Shown here piece by piece: positions 16,640 to 55,437 of a DNA stretch of 64,000 nt. The stretch's first letter is position 1, and every line of letters begins with the position of its first letter. The stretch spans positions 496,001-560,000 of the forward strand of contig NZ_CP048914.1 of assembly GCF_014023125.1 (NCBI RefSeq), read 5' to 3'. The notes under the pieces are model-generated. The model searched no databases. It worked only from the letters and a program-made list of their open reading frames with translations, and was not told the origin of the DNA. The translations under genes were made by a program, and so were the position numbers. The DNA is from Candidatus Xianfuyuplasma coldseepsis. Lineage in GTDB: Bacteria > Bacillota_I > Bacilli_A > Izemoplasmatales > Izemoplasmataceae.

Positions 16640-18082
16640 TCACCCTTTCTTGATTGCTGATTGAATCATTTTTTGTTTTAAGTCATATAATGGTTTTGAT
16701 AAGTCTACATAATATTTGTGGGGATATTCAAAACGTTTAACTTCATCCCACAGTTTTTCTTTTTGATCTTTCGCGTAGGTAATGATTTCATCCAGTTCCG
16801 GTTGATCGTAAACGAGTTTTCCATTTCTGAAAATGGGTTGCAACATCGGTACTAGTTCGTAAGTATCAAATGTTTTGGATTTCCAAGGATGTTTTGGATC
16901 GAAAATGGTCAACGGTTTTGATGTATCGATTACTTCATCGTGTAACGTGATTAAATCGGCTTCGAATTTTCCGTTTTCATCAACGATTCGATAGACGTTT
17001 TTATAATGGGGTGTCGTTATTTTATCGACGTTTTCACTGATTTTAATTGTTGGTTGAATAGTCCCGTTTTTCGATATTGCTGCAAGTTTATATACGGCAC
17101 CAAAAACAGGATCACTTTTTGCAGTAATTAACCGTTCACCAACCCCGAAAATATCGATTGGTGCACCTTGATTCAAGAGATCCTTGATTAAGTATTCATC
17201 CAGCGCATTACTGACAACGATATGACAATTTTCCAGTCCGGCATCGTCCAACATCTTACGCGCTTTTTTGGTTAAGTACGTTAGATCCCCAGAATCGATT
17301 CGAATTGAATAGTGATTGACACCTTTGGGTACCAACAATTCTTTAATAACTTTGATGGCGTTTGGTATCCCACTTTTCAGCGTATCATACGTGTCTACGA
17401 GTAAGGTGCAGTTGGTCGGATAAATTTCGGCATAGGTTTTAAACGCTTCATACTCGGTATCAAATAATTGGACCCAGGAATGGGCCATTGTACCAAGGGC
17501 CTTCACACCGTATAACTGATCCGCTAAAACATTACTAGTCGCGTCGATTCCACCAATGGACGCCGCCCGTGCACCTAGAACACTACTGGATGCACCATGT
17601 GCTCGTCGTGCTCCCATCTCTAAGACTAAACGGTGTTTGGCAGATTGTTTGATACGTGAGGCTTTTGTAGCAATCAGACTTTGATGGTTTACTACTTGCA
17701 AAAGATAGGTTTCCAGTAGTTGTGCCTCAATAATTGGTGCTTTAACGGTGATAATCGGTTCATAGGGAAACATGACGCTTCCTTCTAAGAAGGATTCGAC
17801 ATCTCCGGTGAATCGGAGGTTTCTTAGGTATTCCAAAAAGTCATCTGAAAACATATCACGGTTCCGTAAATATTCGATGTCTTCGTCGACAAAACGAAAG
17901 TTTTCAATGTGTTGAATAATCGATTCTAGTCCCGCAAAAATACTATATCCACCATTGTCTGGATTATCACGGAAGAACAAATCAAAACACACCATTTCAT
18001 CTTTACGACAGCTTTTATAGTAGCCGTATGCCATGGTGAGTTCATAAAAATCAGTAAGCATTGTTAACTGTAATGATTTCAT
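16640..18082 (-). CDS. pncB: Nicotinate phosphoribosyltransferase
   Basis: A 480-residue NAPRTase that joins nicotinate to PRPP to give nicotinate mononucleotide. Motifs include the N-terminal MLTDFYELTMAYGYY, the LEMGARRAHG stretch, GGIDATSNVLA, GTMAHSWVQ, LVDTYDTLKSG, RIDSGDL, and FGVGERLITA. Its ATG overlaps the pncA stop as ATGA, so translation is coupled. It forms the step after nicotinamidase in the Preiss-Handler route. Confidence 0.95.
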   Translation of the reverse strand: MKSLQLTMLTDFYELTMAYGYYKSCRKDEMVCFDLFFRDNPDNGGYSIFAGLESIIQHIENFRFVDEDIEYLRNRDMFSDDFLEYLRNLRFTGDVESFLEGSVMFPYEPIITVKAPIIEAQLLETYLLQVVNHQSLIATKASRIKQSAKHRLVLEMGARRAHGASSSVLGARAASIGGIDATSNVLADQLYGVKALGTMAHSWVQLFDTEYEAFKTYAEIYPTNCTLLVDTYDTLKSGIPNAIKVIKELLVPKGVNHYSIRIDSGDLTYLTKKARKMLDDAGLENCHIVVSNALDEYLIKDLLNQGAPIDIFGVGERLITAKSDPVFGAVYKLAAISKNGTIQPTIKISENVDKITTPHYKNVYRIVDENGKFEADLITLHDEVIDTSKPLTIFDPKHPWKSKTFDTYELVPMLQPIFRNGKLVYDQPELDEIITYAKDQKEKLWDEVKRFEYPHKYYVDLSKPLYDLKQKMIQSAIKKG

Positions 18083-18606
18083 CGATTGATTACCTCTACG
18101 TGAATTCCTTCTAGGATATTGAGTGCTTGTTCATGTAAGTTGGAATCAAAGCTTGCGGTTGCTTGTGCATCGACAACAATGTGGGCATTGGGTAGTGCAC
18201 TTTTGGCAATGACAGCATTGCTCAGAACACAGATATTGGAAACGAGTCCACATAGTTCAATAACCTCATAGTCCTTGGTTGCTAGATAGTTACCAAGTTC
18301 TAATGACGGAAAACTATATTTAATAAATTCGACATCGGTGTTTTCCCGTAATGCATCCACATCTTCTTGCAATGCATGACCGGTTGTTCCTTCTACGCAA
18401 TGAATGACTGGTAGGTGTTGTCCTTCTTCCGTATCCAAGTAGTCCTCGGTATGGGTGTCTTTTGTAAAGATGACATCCCCTCCGTCTTGTTTTACTTGAG
18501 TAATCTTGTTAATGATGGCGTCTTTGATATTAAGGGCACCATCAAAACCAAGGGCACCATCAATAAAATCGTTTTGATAGTCGACAACAATTAAGCATTT
18601 GTTCAT
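18079..18606 (-). CDS. pncA: Nicotinamidase
   Basis: A 175-residue isochorismatase-fold amidohydrolase converting nicotinamide to nicotinate. VVDYQNDFIDGALGF carries the catalytic Asp and metal-site context, FTKDTHTEDY gives the His ligands, HCVEGTTGH follows, and GLVSNICVLSNAV carries the nucleophilic Cys. First gene of a four-gene minus-strand operon (pncA, pncB, zwf, cyclase). A TATAAT box on the minus strand lies at 18630-18625. Confidence 0.93.
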   Translation of the reverse strand: MNKCLIVVDYQNDFIDGALGFDGALNIKDAIINKITQVKQDGGDVIFTKDTHTEDYLDTEEGQHLPVIHCVEGTTGHALQEDVDALRENTDVEFIKYSFPSLELGNYLATKDYEVIELCGLVSNICVLSNAVIAKSALPNAHIVVDAQATASFDSNLHEQALNILEGIHVEVINR

Positions 18607-50406: not shown

Positions 50407-51363
50407 ATGATTACTAGCGGTACGTTATACATTCGCACGAAAGATTCAGTAGAACATACTCAGTATGGATATCGTGACATCGCCAACAACATACCCATAA
50501 ATGAAACGACACGCTTTCCAACGGCCTCAGCAGGAAAGGTGTTTGTTGCTGTAGGCATTTTACAGTTGATTGAACGAGGAAAATGTCGACTTGATTCGAC
50601 ACTTCAAGAACTGCTTGATATTCCCCTAGGAAAGATTGATCCCGATGTTACCATTTATCATCTACTTACGCACACATCTGGTGTTCCCGATTACTGTGAT
50701 GAGAGTAAGTTTCCCAATTATGCGGATTTGTGGAAAGACTATCCCAACTATAAAATTCGACACAACAATGACCTGCTTCCACTTTTCATTCATGAAGAGA
50801 TGATGTATCCCAAGGGAGAACGATTCCAATATAACAATTCTGCTTTTGTCTTACTCGCTTCCATTATCGAGGCTTTAACAGATATGCCGTTTGATTGCTA
50901 TCTACAGCAGTATATTTTCAAACCACTTAATATGACAGATACAGGATACTTCGAACTTGATCGGTTACCTGAGAATTGTACCTATGGTTATATCCTTGAT
51001 GAAGAAACCAATGAATATTATACAAACATCTACAGTATTGATGTCAAAGGTACTGGTGCGGGTGGTGCTTTTACAAATGCACTGGATATTGCGAAGTTCT
51101 GGGATGGATTACTATCACATAAATTACTTTCAGAAGACATGACAAAAACGATGCTTCATAAAGAACAAGACGCAGGTAACTGGGGATATGGCCTCGGCAT
51201 TTGGCTAGATACGAACAACCAACCTTGTTTTACCGGAGAAGACCCCGGAGTGACATTTATCACAGGATATGATCGAATAAACAATCGGTTGATTACAATT
51301 ATATCCAACAAAGGAGAAGACGTATTTTCACTCTTTTCAAGCCTACAAAAAAAAGACCAATGA
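50407..51363 (+). CDS. Serine hydrolase, beta-lactamase/class C PBP family
   Basis: A 318-residue cytosolic-looking protein. FPTASAGKVFVAVGILQLIE carries the SxxK motif (SAGK), FQYNNSAFVLLASIIE carries YxN, and a C-terminal DPGVTFITGYDR segment could hold the third motif. No signal peptide is visible. Family members hydrolyse esters, lactams or D-amino acid peptides; the role is unknown. AAGGAGTGA fixes the start at 50407; a longer frame begins at 50347. Confidence 0.88.
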   Translation: MITSGTLYIRTKDSVEHTQYGYRDIANNIPINETTRFPTASAGKVFVAVGILQLIERGKCRLDSTLQELLDIPLGKIDPDVTIYHLLTHTSGVPDYCDESKFPNYADLWKDYPNYKIRHNNDLLPLFIHEEMMYPKGERFQYNNSAFVLLASIIEALTDMPFDCYLQQYIFKPLNMTDTGYFELDRLPENCTYGYILDEETNEYYTNIYSIDVKGTGAGGAFTNALDIAKFWDGLLSHKLLSEDMTKTMLHKEQDAGNWGYGLGIWLDTNNQPCFTGEDPGVTFITGYDRINNRLITIISNKGEDVFSLFSSLQKKDQ

Positions 51364-51376
51364 TGGTCTTTTTGTT
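51349..51376. terminator. Bidirectional terminator
   Basis: AAAAGACCA pairs with TGGTCTTTT around ATGA, with T tracts. It ends both the serine hydrolase and the heliorhodopsin transcripts. Confidence 0.85.
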
Positions 51377-51389
51377 TGCAGTGTATTTC

Positions 51390-52187
51390 TTATGGTTGCA
51401 ATGCACCAACAAGAACGAGCCATGCTAGTACCGATTTAGCGACTAAGCTTAGAACGATATATCCACGTTCTCCGTAGAGATAATTGGCGAACTTACCTTT
51501 TTGTAAGTACTGCATAATCATGTTGATTGGGAAGCTGTTAAACGCTACAAAGTAGGTTCCAACTATCGCCCATACAAACCATGGTGTTGCTTCATTAACT
51601 TCGGATGATGCCCCAGATAGATACAGGATAATGGCGATCCATGGAGCAAGTCCAGCAAAACTACCCCATATAAATGGTCCCCAGTTGACATTGGTTTTTT
51701 CTTTACCAGAGTTTAATAACTCCATGTCCAGTCCAAACAAGTTCATGGATGCATTAACGATAAAGATCAAGACCAAGGATGCTACGTCGTAAATTCCGAA
51801 TAGATACGCGATTAAGACGATCATGACACTTGAACTAAGTGCATATTCGAACCAACGGAAACGGTTAATTCCTTTTTCCAAGTCAGCATTGTAAATGTCA
51901 TTGGTTTTCTTTGGTAACGAGATAATCGCATGCGCAATCGCTGAAATTAATAAGAACGATGCCACAAGTACAAAGAATGGTACTTCAAATAATACTTTGC
52001 TCGCTGATTCCAACTCTTGTGTTGTAAAATTGAAATCTAAGAAATTTTGTGTAATCGTAAGTTTAAAATCCCCAAATGCACTAACCGTTAATCCAAGGAT
52101 AATCATCAATAATCCTTGTACAAGGTGTAATCCCCCCATAATCATGTTAAAGCGTTTTAATGAGGAGGCTGATACTTCTTTTGTCAT
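51390..52187 (-). CDS. Heliorhodopsin
   Basis: A 265-residue, seven-segment retinal protein. RWFEYALSSSVMIVLIA places the Schiff-base counter-ion Glu at 114, and GERGYIVLSLVAKSVLAW places the retinal Lys at 251. GGLHLVQ (His21) and AIAHAIIS (His86) match the two cytoplasm-side His of the type member 48C12, and NASMNLFG and FNSF are also family features. Heliorhodopsins have the N-terminus inside, show a slow photocycle and pump no ions; they are thought to act as light sensors or regulators. AAAGGAGAATT precedes the ATG, and a TATAAT box on the minus strand lies at 52225-52220. No carotenoid or retinal genes are in the window, so retinal must come from elsewhere in the genome or the surroundings. 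Confidence 0.95.
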   Translation of the reverse strand: MTKEVSASSLKRFNMIMGGLHLVQGLLMIILGLTVSAFGDFKLTITQNFLDFNFTTQELESASKVLFEVPFFVLVASFLLISAIAHAIISLPKKTNDIYNADLEKGINRFRWFEYALSSSVMIVLIAYLFGIYDVASLVLIFIVNASMNLFGLDMELLNSGKEKTNVNWGPFIWGSFAGLAPWIAIILYLSGASSEVNEATPWFVWAIVGTYFVAFNSFPINMIMQYLQKGKFANYLYGERGYIVLSLVAKSVLAWLVLVGALQP

Positions 52188-52264
52188 ATTTAATTCTCCT
52201 TTAAATTTATTTCAATAATATTATATCGTAATTTTTATAAATATAGAACTAAAACGCAATCATT

Positions 52265-53464
52265 TCAGGACTCTTTTACACGCAATATCATTGGAAATAA
52301 CAGAGCAGGTACTAATAGAAGCAATGCCGTAAATAAATACATTCCTTCTATTCCTACAAGGAACGTAGCGCCAACCATTAACGCACCACTTAGTAATTGG
52401 CCAATCGCATCCAATTGTCCGAACCCCGAAAGAACAGTGGCTTTAATACGAGATGGTGTTGAGCGAATTAATATCGTATTGAGTAAGGGGTAAGTTGCTT
52501 CACGATTGATGGTAAAGAACATAAAACTAACGACAGCAATGTATTCAAATGGTAAAAAAGCAAAGAGTACGATTCCAACAATCATCATAATTGTAAAATT
52601 GAGGGCCCATAGTACGACATGATGACCTTTTGTAATGTATTTCTTAACAACATGTAAAACCACATATCCGATAATCGCAATTATCGCATTAATTATAGAT
52701 AAGATCCAGATTGGCGCAATATCAAAGTAATCGCGCATATTCAAATTGTTCAAAATATACCGTTCATGGGTCCGATCAATACCTTCGCTATATAGTCCAA
52801 GAAATAACATAATCACAACCATTATTTTTAAAACCTTATTTGTGCGAACGTGGGATAAAGCATGACCTAGTTGTGAAAAATATAGAGTCCAGAGTGGCTC
52901 ATGGTGGGGATGTTTGACAAAGTGTTCTTCGTTCATTAAAGCAATCGCAAAAAGTCCCATAAAGATGAATAATCCTCCAGCAAATGCAATCGCTAGTCGA
53001 ATGTCAAACATTCCAATAACGGCTGCTAAGACAATCCCAAGGACACTAAACAATTTATGCATTTGAGCTCCGGAAATCAATGTTTGTTCAATGTTTTGAT
53101 TCCCTGTTTCATCACTAATCCAAGAATCCAACGCACCACTGATAAAGGTATATCCTAACCCCCATATGATTTGCGATAATACAATCACAAGGAAAAATGT
53201 CGTAAGGATCTCAACAAAGAACCCTAGACCAATGATAAATAATCCGATGATTATACTTAACCGTCTACTTTTCAAATCGGCGACAACTCCCGTTGGTACT
53301 TCAAACAAAAAGATAGCGATTTCTAATGCACTACCTACTAAAATCAGCTGGTAGATTTCTAGATTCGCCACATCAATTCGATAGATGGCCGTAGCCATGA
53401 ATGACATGTTAAATGCGAGTCCCATGACACTACGGAGAATTATATATAGTTTTTTGGTATTCAT
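52265..53464 (-). CDS. MFS transporter
   Basis: A 399-residue, twelve-segment major facilitator. LFEVPTGVVADLKSRRLSIIIGLFIIGLGF is the motif A region (G-x-x-x-D-x-x-x-R-R), and WGLGYTFISGALDSWISDE follows, which places it among drug/antibiotic-like exporters of Bacillota. It is 77 bases upstream of the heliorhodopsin gene on the same strand, and 24 bases downstream of a small membrane protein gene; no terminator is seen between them. Substrate unknown. Confidence 0.85.
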   Translation of the reverse strand: MNTKKLYIILRSVMGLAFNMSFMATAIYRIDVANLEIYQLILVGSALEIAIFLFEVPTGVVADLKSRRLSIIIGLFIIGLGFFVEILTTFFLVIVLSQIIWGLGYTFISGALDSWISDETGNQNIEQTLISGAQMHKLFSVLGIVLAAVIGMFDIRLAIAFAGGLFIFMGLFAIALMNEEHFVKHPHHEPLWTLYFSQLGHALSHVRTNKVLKIMVVIMLFLGLYSEGIDRTHERYILNNLNMRDYFDIAPIWILSIINAIIAIIGYVVLHVVKKYITKGHHVVLWALNFTIMMIVGIVLFAFLPFEYIAVVSFMFFTINREATYPLLNTILIRSTPSRIKATVLSGFGQLDAIGQLLSGALMVGATFLVGIEGMYLFTALLLLVPALLFPMILRVKES

Positions 53465-53488
53465 AGGTGAACCTACATTCTTTCTTTG

Positions 53489-53902
53489 TTATCGTATTAA
53501 CGACAACCCTAAAATGGTAAAAATTACTACGGTGAATACATGGATGACTGCAAGTCCCCGTTTTGGAACTTCTTTTTTACTGAACTTAGTAATGATGATC
53601 TCAACGAACATCATTATGAGGGCAAACACTGGAAGCAAATACAAGCGGTTCGCATCACTTGTTGTCATTAATGTCCCCCAATAGGAAAAGTAGGTAAACA
53701 CTTCTACAACCGTAATAATCAGCATGGCAAGCATATATCGTAATCGTTCTATAAGCATGTCCTTTGGCATAAATAAATGAATCACACCTAGGATGATTGG
53801 TGTTAATCCAAGCGATAAAAAAATCAAATATCCATCTAGTGCAAGTATAACTGATACGGTCGTAATCAACCAAAAGCTACCGCGTAAGATCCATTGTTTC
53901 AT
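53489..53902 (-). CDS. Small membrane protein (137 aa), unknown function
   Basis: Four hydrophobic segments (about 8-26, 28-46, 56-76 and 88-108, plus the C-terminal GLAVIHVFTVVIFTILG). I do not recognise a family. GGGGGATTC precedes the ATG. The 24-base gap to the MFS gene suggests the order membrane protein, MFS, heliorhodopsin in one transcript. Confidence 0.65.
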   Translation of the reverse strand: MKQWILRGSFWLITTVSVILALDGYLIFLSLGLTPIILGVIHLFMPKDMLIERLRYMLAMLIITVVEVFTYFSYWGTLMTTSDANRLYLLPVFALIMMFVEIIITKFSKKEVPKRGLAVIHVFTVVIFTILGLSLIR

Positions 53903-53962
53903 TGAGAATCCCCCATTCTTGAAAATCTACTATAAGTATACCAAACAATGTCCAAATATCCC

Positions 53963-53990
53963 AATAAAAAAAGCCCTAACGGGCTTATTT
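53963..53990 (-). terminator. Terminator after TrkH/KtrB-family gene
   Basis: On the minus strand AAGCCC pairs with GGGCTT around GTTA, followed by a run of T. Confidence 0.8.
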
Positions 53991-55339
53991 TAACCAATCA
54001 TAATTTCTTCATCAGGGTAGGATATCGCAGTCGTTACCTGACGGCGTTGGGCAAGTGCCATAAATAAGGTTAACGGGCCAATCCGACCAACAAACATCGT
54101 AATTGTAATGACAAGTTTACCAACTACACTAAGTTGTGTTGTAATACCTAGTGATAACCCAACGGTACCAAAGGCACTGATGGCTTCAAAGACAATGACT
54201 TGCAAAGGCGCATCTTCGGTAATCGATAGAATGAAGATTACGGTGATTACCCATAACATTGCTAACGTAATAATCGCAAGTGATTTATTGACTAAATCAC
54301 GAGGTAACTTACGATTGAAACTCTCGGTTTCTTTACGTCCTTTTAAGGTTGACACAATCGAGGCCACAATGACACCAACGGTGGTAACTTTAACCCCACC
54401 AGCGGTACCAGCTGTACCCGCTCCGATAAACATGAAGATCATCGTCATGACAATCGTACCAAGCATTAGTTTATCCATCGGTAATGTATTAAAACCTGCA
54501 GTACGTGGGGTAACAGAGTGGAAGAATCCACTAAGTAATTTACCACCAATGGATAAATTACCCATGGTTTCAGGGTTGTTGAATTCGAGTGCTAGAACAA
54601 TGATGTATCCAAGAACCAATAAGAACGCCGTCATACTTATGGCAATCTTAGAATGCAAACTAAGTCGTTTCAAGCTTTTCTTTTCCAGTAGTTCGAAGAT
54701 GACAACAAAACCAAGCCCACCAATTATAATCAACATCGCGACGGTTAATGTAACAACTGGATCATTGACAAACGGTGTTAAACTTTGAAAATTACCAATC
54801 AAATCAAAACCAGCATTACAAAAGGCACTAACACTGTGAAAGACACTGAGCCAAATACCTTGGCCAACGCCATAAATAGGGATAAACCTTGTCGCTAAGA
54901 TGATTGCACCAATTCCCTCAACAACAAACGTCATGATTAAGATGTATCTTGCTAAACGAACAACACCACCAACCGTGATTTTATTCATTGCTTCTTGCAT
55001 CACCACGCGTTGACGGAAGGTAATACGGCGCCCAATAATAAGGGCAAACAGGGTTCCCATGGTAATGATACCAAGACCCCCAATTTGAATTAATATTAAG
55101 ATGACAACATGACCGAATGTGGTCCAATGTGTCAGCGTATCAACAACGACTAACCCTGTAACAGCAACGGAACTTGCAGCGGTAAATAAAGCATTTACAA
55201 AACCGACACTATCACCAGATTTACTGGCGAACGGTAAGTTCAACAACAATGCCCCAATCAAGATTACCAATGCAAATCCAAGCACTAATATCTCAGCGGT
55301 TGTCAAATGGATTTGTCGAAATTTACGAACTGCATTCAT
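53990..55339 (-). CDS. ktrB: TrkH/KtrB-family potassium transporter subunit
   Basis: A 449-residue membrane subunit with four M1-P-M2 repeats. Selectivity-filter-like turns are seen as AASSVAVTGLVVVDT, SAFCNAGFDLIG, SVTPRTAGFNTLPM and AFGTVGLSLGITT, and GAGTAGTAGGVKVTT provides the intramembrane loop. It takes up K+ with a regulatory RCK subunit (KtrA/TrkA), which is not in this window. An ATG lies upstream at 55408, but AGAAAGGGA fits the start at 55339. Confidence 0.92.
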   Translation of the reverse strand: MNAVRKFRQIHLTTAEILVLGFALVILIGALLLNLPFASKSGDSVGFVNALFTAASSVAVTGLVVVDTLTHWTTFGHVVILILIQIGGLGIITMGTLFALIIGRRITFRQRVVMQEAMNKITVGGVVRLARYILIMTFVVEGIGAIILATRFIPIYGVGQGIWLSVFHSVSAFCNAGFDLIGNFQSLTPFVNDPVVTLTVAMLIIIGGLGFVVIFELLEKKSLKRLSLHSKIAISMTAFLLVLGYIIVLALEFNNPETMGNLSIGGKLLSGFFHSVTPRTAGFNTLPMDKLMLGTIVMTMIFMFIGAGTAGTAGGVKVTTVGVIVASIVSTLKGRKETESFNRKLPRDLVNKSLAIITLAMLWVITVIFILSITEDAPLQVIVFEAISAFGTVGLSLGITTQLSVVGKLVITITMFVGRIGPLTLFMALAQRRQVTTAISYPDEEIMIG

Positions 55340-55437
55340 AATATGTCCCTTTCTCCCTGTTATTACATAACACACGCAAATTATACTGTTTTTATGGGCG
55401 TTTGTCAAAACTGTTTATAACAACTTGACACGATCCT

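Follow-up and report, generated by a model that had tools for sequence, protein, structure and literature searches.

Candidatus Xianfuyuplasma coldseepsis zrk13 is a wall-less anaerobe brought into culture from a deep-sea cold seep in the South China Sea (PMC8397711), with RNA-seq data deposited under PRJNA664657, PRJNA669477 and PRJNA669478. Its genome (G000 among the genomes compared) is a single contig of 1,958,905 bp, from which a stretch of 64,000 nucleotides was analysed, here termed the window. On the minus strand of the window, a TrkH gene (53990-55408) is followed by genes for a 137-residue membrane protein (53489..53902), a 399-residue MFS transporter (52265..53464) and a 265-residue heliorhodopsin (HeR; 51390..52187), beyond which lies a convergent serine-hydrolase gene. 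The gaps are 24 bp between the 137-residue protein and MFS genes, and 77 bp between the MFS and HeR genes, and a terminator scan found no terminator-like site between the three. The open reading frames thus stand as the first-pass annotation had described them, as three codirectional, closely spaced genes. A hairpin, AAAAGACC-AATGAT-GGTCTTTT, lies between the convergent HeR and serine-hydrolase genes (51350..51374, assigned to neither strand); it was missed by the terminator scan, and is probably a two-way terminator, judging by its sequence. At the other end, a consensus match (TTGGGA-18-TATACT, 53935..53964, minus strand) provides a predicted promoter for the 137-residue protein and MFS genes, which are probably cotranscribed.

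The HeR is real and intact, and an ordinary member of a known family. It matches the full Pfam PF18761 profile (E 2.5e-91, 305.8 bits against a cut-off of 26.7) and the full NCBIfam HeR equivalog NF038020 (287.8 bits, cut-off 100), and the sequences of solved heliorhodopsins match it at E ~1e-49. Relative to 48C12 (PDB 6su3, 6uh3) and TaHeR it shows full-length homology with all key residues aligned, while it comes from a different organism and gene setting and is clearly divergent in sequence. The counterion Glu114 (helix C), the retinal Lys251 (helix G), His21 and His86 correspond to Glu107, Lys241, His23 and His80 of 48C12, and are invariant in all 70 aligned HeRs, while the pocket residues His23, His80 and Ser237 are represented by H21, H86 and S247. 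The earlier identification of a genuine HeR, including the alignment of Lys251 with the retinal lysine on which it had been staked, is therefore upheld. An inverted topology, with the N-terminus inside, is expected from the family assignment. Between zrk13 and its sister species (G002) pN is 0.09 and synonymous sites are saturated, so that dN/dS indicates purifying selection in a qualitative sense only.

The comparison set comprised 101 genomes (zrk13 and 100 relatives), 60 of which carry HeR; the occurrence of HeR in such a bacterium, previously regarded as notable, is nothing out of the ordinary among these relatives. The HeR tree places zrk13 as sister to G002 (support 100/98), with genera g7 and g17 next. 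Genome G007 has three HeR paralogues (loci L081, C2:56000-72275, and L112, C2:22000-36000; L080 of G022 is listed alongside), two of which are ~4 kb apart, separated by polyprenyl-synthase-like and RNA-methyltransferase-like genes, while the third belongs to a divergent clade and is ~47% identical to the zrk13 HeR. Another HeR of this divergent clade (locus L150, G031 C109, 1406-4503) adjoins a short-chain dehydrogenase-like gene, and is divergently oriented to a second, non-class-II gene of the photolyase/cryptochrome type.

HeR function is still debated, and proposals for partner proteins rest largely on single operons. The MFS and 137-residue proteins had been put forward as partner candidates on the basis of a possible operon. 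The layout stands, but the three-gene order proved unique to zrk13, an outcome that the annotation had itself named as refuting the idea. No relative of the 137-residue protein was found in the 100 other genomes. The MFS transporter is of the drug-efflux type (its closest models are Tet(40) and TetA(P), with scores far under their cut-offs) and is a lineage-specific neighbour: orthologues with 44-61% identity occur in eight relatives, and one with 33% in a ninth, all away from HeR (as in G002, G052, G056, G071, G081, G007, G022 and G034), and none was found in any other HeR locus searched. The MFS genes of three of these genomes (G052, G056 and G071) have a homologue of the window's antiporter gene (58292) in their vicinity, and that of G002 has homologues of two other window genes (47069 and 47951) close by. 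Since such neighbours are kept, the zrk13 MFS gene may occupy its ancestral neighbourhood, with HeR the newcomer. Both proteins are consequently rejected as conserved partners, and the position of the MFS gene next to HeR in zrk13 is most likely incidental.

Neighbours of HeR differ widely among genera, and two others were considered. A gene for a 107-residue membrane protein (cluster 12) immediately precedes HeR in four of the five closest relatives (G002, G023, G033 and G019); it was rejected as a general partner, occurring in 29 of the 101 genomes, and zrk13 has a 56% homologue away from HeR (C1:474395). Glutathione peroxidase, which published surveys also report near HeR, lies beside it in G002 and G019 but is weakly co-distributed, and was likewise set aside.

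Judging by its upstream motif, the HeR gene has a promoter of its own, situated within the 77-bp gap. The minus-strand features of the gap comprise a ribosome-binding site, AAAGGAG (52196..52202), a -10 box, TATAAT (52220..52225), 38 nt before the ATG, and an upstream element, TTGCGTTT (52252..52259), which immediately follows the MFS stop codon and whose start is 34 nt ahead of the -10 box, giving the layout TTGCGTTT-N23-CGATATAAT. An exact TATAAT occurs at -28 to -60 in 32 of 63 HeR upstream regions, against 4.8 +/- 2.0 expected, regardless of the upstream gene. Aligned on this box, HeR promoters usually carry a TG separated from it by one base and lack a TTG at -35; often there is also a GC-containing element at constant spacing, its GC dinucleotide falling at -32 relative to the box. 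The position of the element is shared by G002 and many HeR promoters, as well as by promoters of genes for the membrane protein DUF2177. In G002, where the genes upstream of HeR encode a glutathione peroxidase and the 107-residue protein, the GC overlaps the stop codon of an upstream gene unrelated to MFS, indicating that the promoter travels with HeR. By comparison, zrk13 promoters of the ordinary kind show a TTG-like -35 region and a slight rise in GC at -32 (6/139 and 10/159), and the element was accordingly dismissed as a general promoter feature of this genome. Upstream of HeR at four loci from several genera (L059, L060, L067 and L068), the GC element is directly repeated (GAGCA/AAGCA) at a spacing of ~11 bp, reminiscent of MerR/CarH-type operators.

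The same architecture, consisting of an upstream element of the WWGC(A/G)T type, ~23 nt, and TGnTATAAT with no -35 box, is found in DUF2177 promoters across the family, and in front of a zrk13 operon encoding DUF1295, a class II photolyase and DUF523/DUF1722 (genome positions 1,256,776-1,259,730; DUF1295-phr below), where the spacing from element to -10 box is near-identical to that of the HeR promoter. Promoters that depend on an activator typically combine an extended -10 box, the lack of a -35 box and an upstream element at a set distance. A motif matrix trained on the HeR upstream regions of other genomes was used to scan 1,211 zrk13 open reading frames, covering 1.315 of 1.959 Mb (67%); the DUF2177 gene (1,090,056-1,090,454) ranked 3rd, the DUF1295-phr operon 4th and the left-out HeR 28th, although the composite motif is only moderately specific, many unrelated zrk13 genes scoring equally high. 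The scan gave no HeR-type site for the MFS gene. Among relatives, 13 of 24 stand-alone DUF2177 upstream regions exceeded the 95% threshold, as did 26 of 561 control genes (p 1e-10). When -10 boxes were picked blind to the GC element, a GC at -34 to -31 was present in 26/44 HeR, 14/21 DUF2177 and 21/108 control promoters. Few photolyase genes carry the motif (in G012 and G011, and in G019 and G056 at operons headed by FakA/DegV), and most class II phr genes in other genera of the zrk13 family (f1) have no element directly upstream, operon starts being resolved only in part; the photolyase part of the regulon is therefore well supported only in zrk13 and some relatives.

The promoter architecture common to HeR, DUF2177 and DUF1295-phr suggests a common, putative activator. 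A regular-expression search for MerR/B12-type proteins, over 67% of the zrk13 genome, gave no convincing candidate. Genes resembling those for superoxide dismutase, UvrB and DNA ligase (C1:483199, 629186 and 764239, outside the window), named from their N-termini only, are in the top 25 of the 1,211 for a HeR-type promoter and possibly reflect a wider light/DNA-damage regulon, as a lead rather than a result. A nicotinamidase-like gene in the window (18079-18606) is also a good match, at rank 24.

Photolyase is a strictly light-using enzyme, and the distribution of HeR follows that of photolyase. Among f1 genomes at least 80% complete, 28 have both HeR and photolyase (PF00875), nine have neither, and none is discordant (37/37 agree); the agreement extends to every genus of mixed content, namely g1 (two with, two without), g7 (one and five) and g14 (five and one). 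Over all 101 genomes, 51 have both, nine HeR only, nine photolyase only and 32 neither (p 1.7e-10), while glutathione peroxidase, as a control, gives a much weaker association in the same f1 set (p 0.08); as the genomes are related, such p-values overstate independence. DUF2177 also associates with HeR (45 both, 15 HeR only, seven DUF2177 only, 34 neither). Elsewhere in the order and class, beyond f1, the match is loose (18 both, eight HeR only, five photolyase only, 21 neither), confining the strict rule to the zrk13 family.

Physical proximity reinforces this pattern. At 13 loci, belonging to several genera, photolyase and HeR are no more than ~6 kb apart; in Hujiaoplasma nucleasis zrk29 (G052; 1,808,583 bp) HeR is divergent from a FakA/DegV-type gene that leads photolyase-DUF2177 genes, and in G099 the order is DUF1295-DUF2177-HeR-phr. 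In zrk13, the photolyase (C1:1257521-1258765) is identified as class II by matches to TIGR00591 (E 1.2e-109, below the model's own cut-off) and to solved class II photolyases (E ~1e-69). It shares the genome with HeR and not the operon, being ~709 kb away. For Trichococcus, experiments both in vitro and in vivo have shown that HeR binds a class II CPD photolyase and stimulates it, with ~three-fold better repair (PMC9769723). The Trichococcus flocculiformis pair, TfHeR-TfPHR, resembles that of zrk13 as a Firmicute-lineage HeR tied to a class II photolyase, with the genes adjacent in zrk13 relatives; it differs in being encoded in one operon, whereas in zrk13 the two are linked by co-inheritance and promoter motif. 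DUF2177 and photolyase are also among ten listed groups of HeR operon neighbours (PMC11109279), and they recur with HeR in the Izemoplasmatales, where the link is additionally in trans, through promoter motif and phyletic pattern.

The check for Blh and carotenoid genes proposed in the first-pass annotation came back empty, a profile search of zrk13 giving no match to BCD/Blh, RPE65 or SQS_PSY. The latter (the phytoene/squalene synthase family) occurs in 26 of the 101 genomes, and BCD or RPE65 exceeds the cut-off in none, although the BCD search was blank in 14 control genomes too, leaving its sensitivity without a positive control. Either retinal is lacking, or it comes from scavenging or from an enzyme that escapes recognition; in zrk13 it is presumably obtained from outside.

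Taken together, these observations favour, with moderate confidence, an ordinary HeR with its own promoter, co-regulated with a photorepair module (photolyase and DUF2177) that is scattered over the zrk13 chromosome. Light, or a linked stress, would switch on the module (HeR, DUF2177 and the DUF1295-phr operon); on absorbing visible light, HeR would then change at its cytoplasmic face and in this state stimulate photolyase, as in Trichococcus, or act through DUF2177. Light regulation and physical contact between HeR and photolyase are inferred steps in this scheme, and the failure to find a retinal-forming enzyme, together with the deep-sea sediment host, counts against it. A bolder form, in which the Izemoplasmatales possess a dedicated light/photorepair regulon, with an activator on the GC element upstream of the extended -10 box and HeR as the obligate partner of photolyase and DUF2177, working in deep-sea sediment bacteria unable to make retinal, is tentative and on balance doubtful.

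Alternatively, HeR and photolyase may be co-inherited only because lineages exposed to light retain both and dark ones lose both, with no regulatory or physical link, a possible if not a likely account. It would explain the co-distribution without any mechanism, and fits the looser match outside f1 and the wide variation of HeR neighbours between genera, but leaves aside the unusual promoter common to HeR, DUF2177 and the zrk13 phr operon, the repeated placement of HeR beside photolyase, and the retention of both genes by the deep-sea isolates zrk13 and zrk29. A light-independent role for HeR, for example in sensing membrane stress or redox state, with either no retinal or a scavenged chromophore, is unlikely: the missing BCD/Blh, RPE65 and phytoene synthase matches, the deep-sea habitat, and glutathione peroxidase beside HeR in some relatives and in published surveys are in keeping with it, against which all 70 of 70 HeRs keep the retinal lysine, the counterion and the pocket residues unchanged, and HeR distribution follows photolyase. 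Very unlikely is cotranscription of HeR with the MFS and 137-residue genes, with HeR regulating the transporter by light in the manner of OcHeR, which controls the ABC multidrug exporter OmrDE in a light-dependent fashion (PMC11109279). The zrk13 arrangement is similar in having a HeR gene near a drug-efflux-type transporter gene on the same strand, with short gaps and no terminator found, and MFS orthologues occur in nine HeR-positive genomes and one HeR-negative genome. It differs in that the transporter is of the MFS rather than the ABC type and the adjacency is confined to zrk13, with other genes upstream of HeR in the sister species and a HeR promoter motif that begins where the MFS gene ends.

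The binding of HeR to photolyase is already published for Trichococcus, while the family-wide co-inheritance and common promoter appear to be new; a literature search on Izemoplasma and rhodopsin turned up only work on a Chloroflexota bacterium. For zrk13, a misleading partner candidate, the MFS transporter, has now been removed, and the question is raised of where 60 genomes that carry HeR, but no recognised oxygenase for forming retinal, obtain their retinal. The significance of the preferred, photorepair reading lies in an all-or-none co-inheritance of HeR and photolyase across a whole family, coupled with a common promoter type, in a group that includes two cultured, sequenced strains (zrk13 and zrk29) with deposited RNA-seq, making the hypothesis that HeR is a helper of photorepair directly testable.
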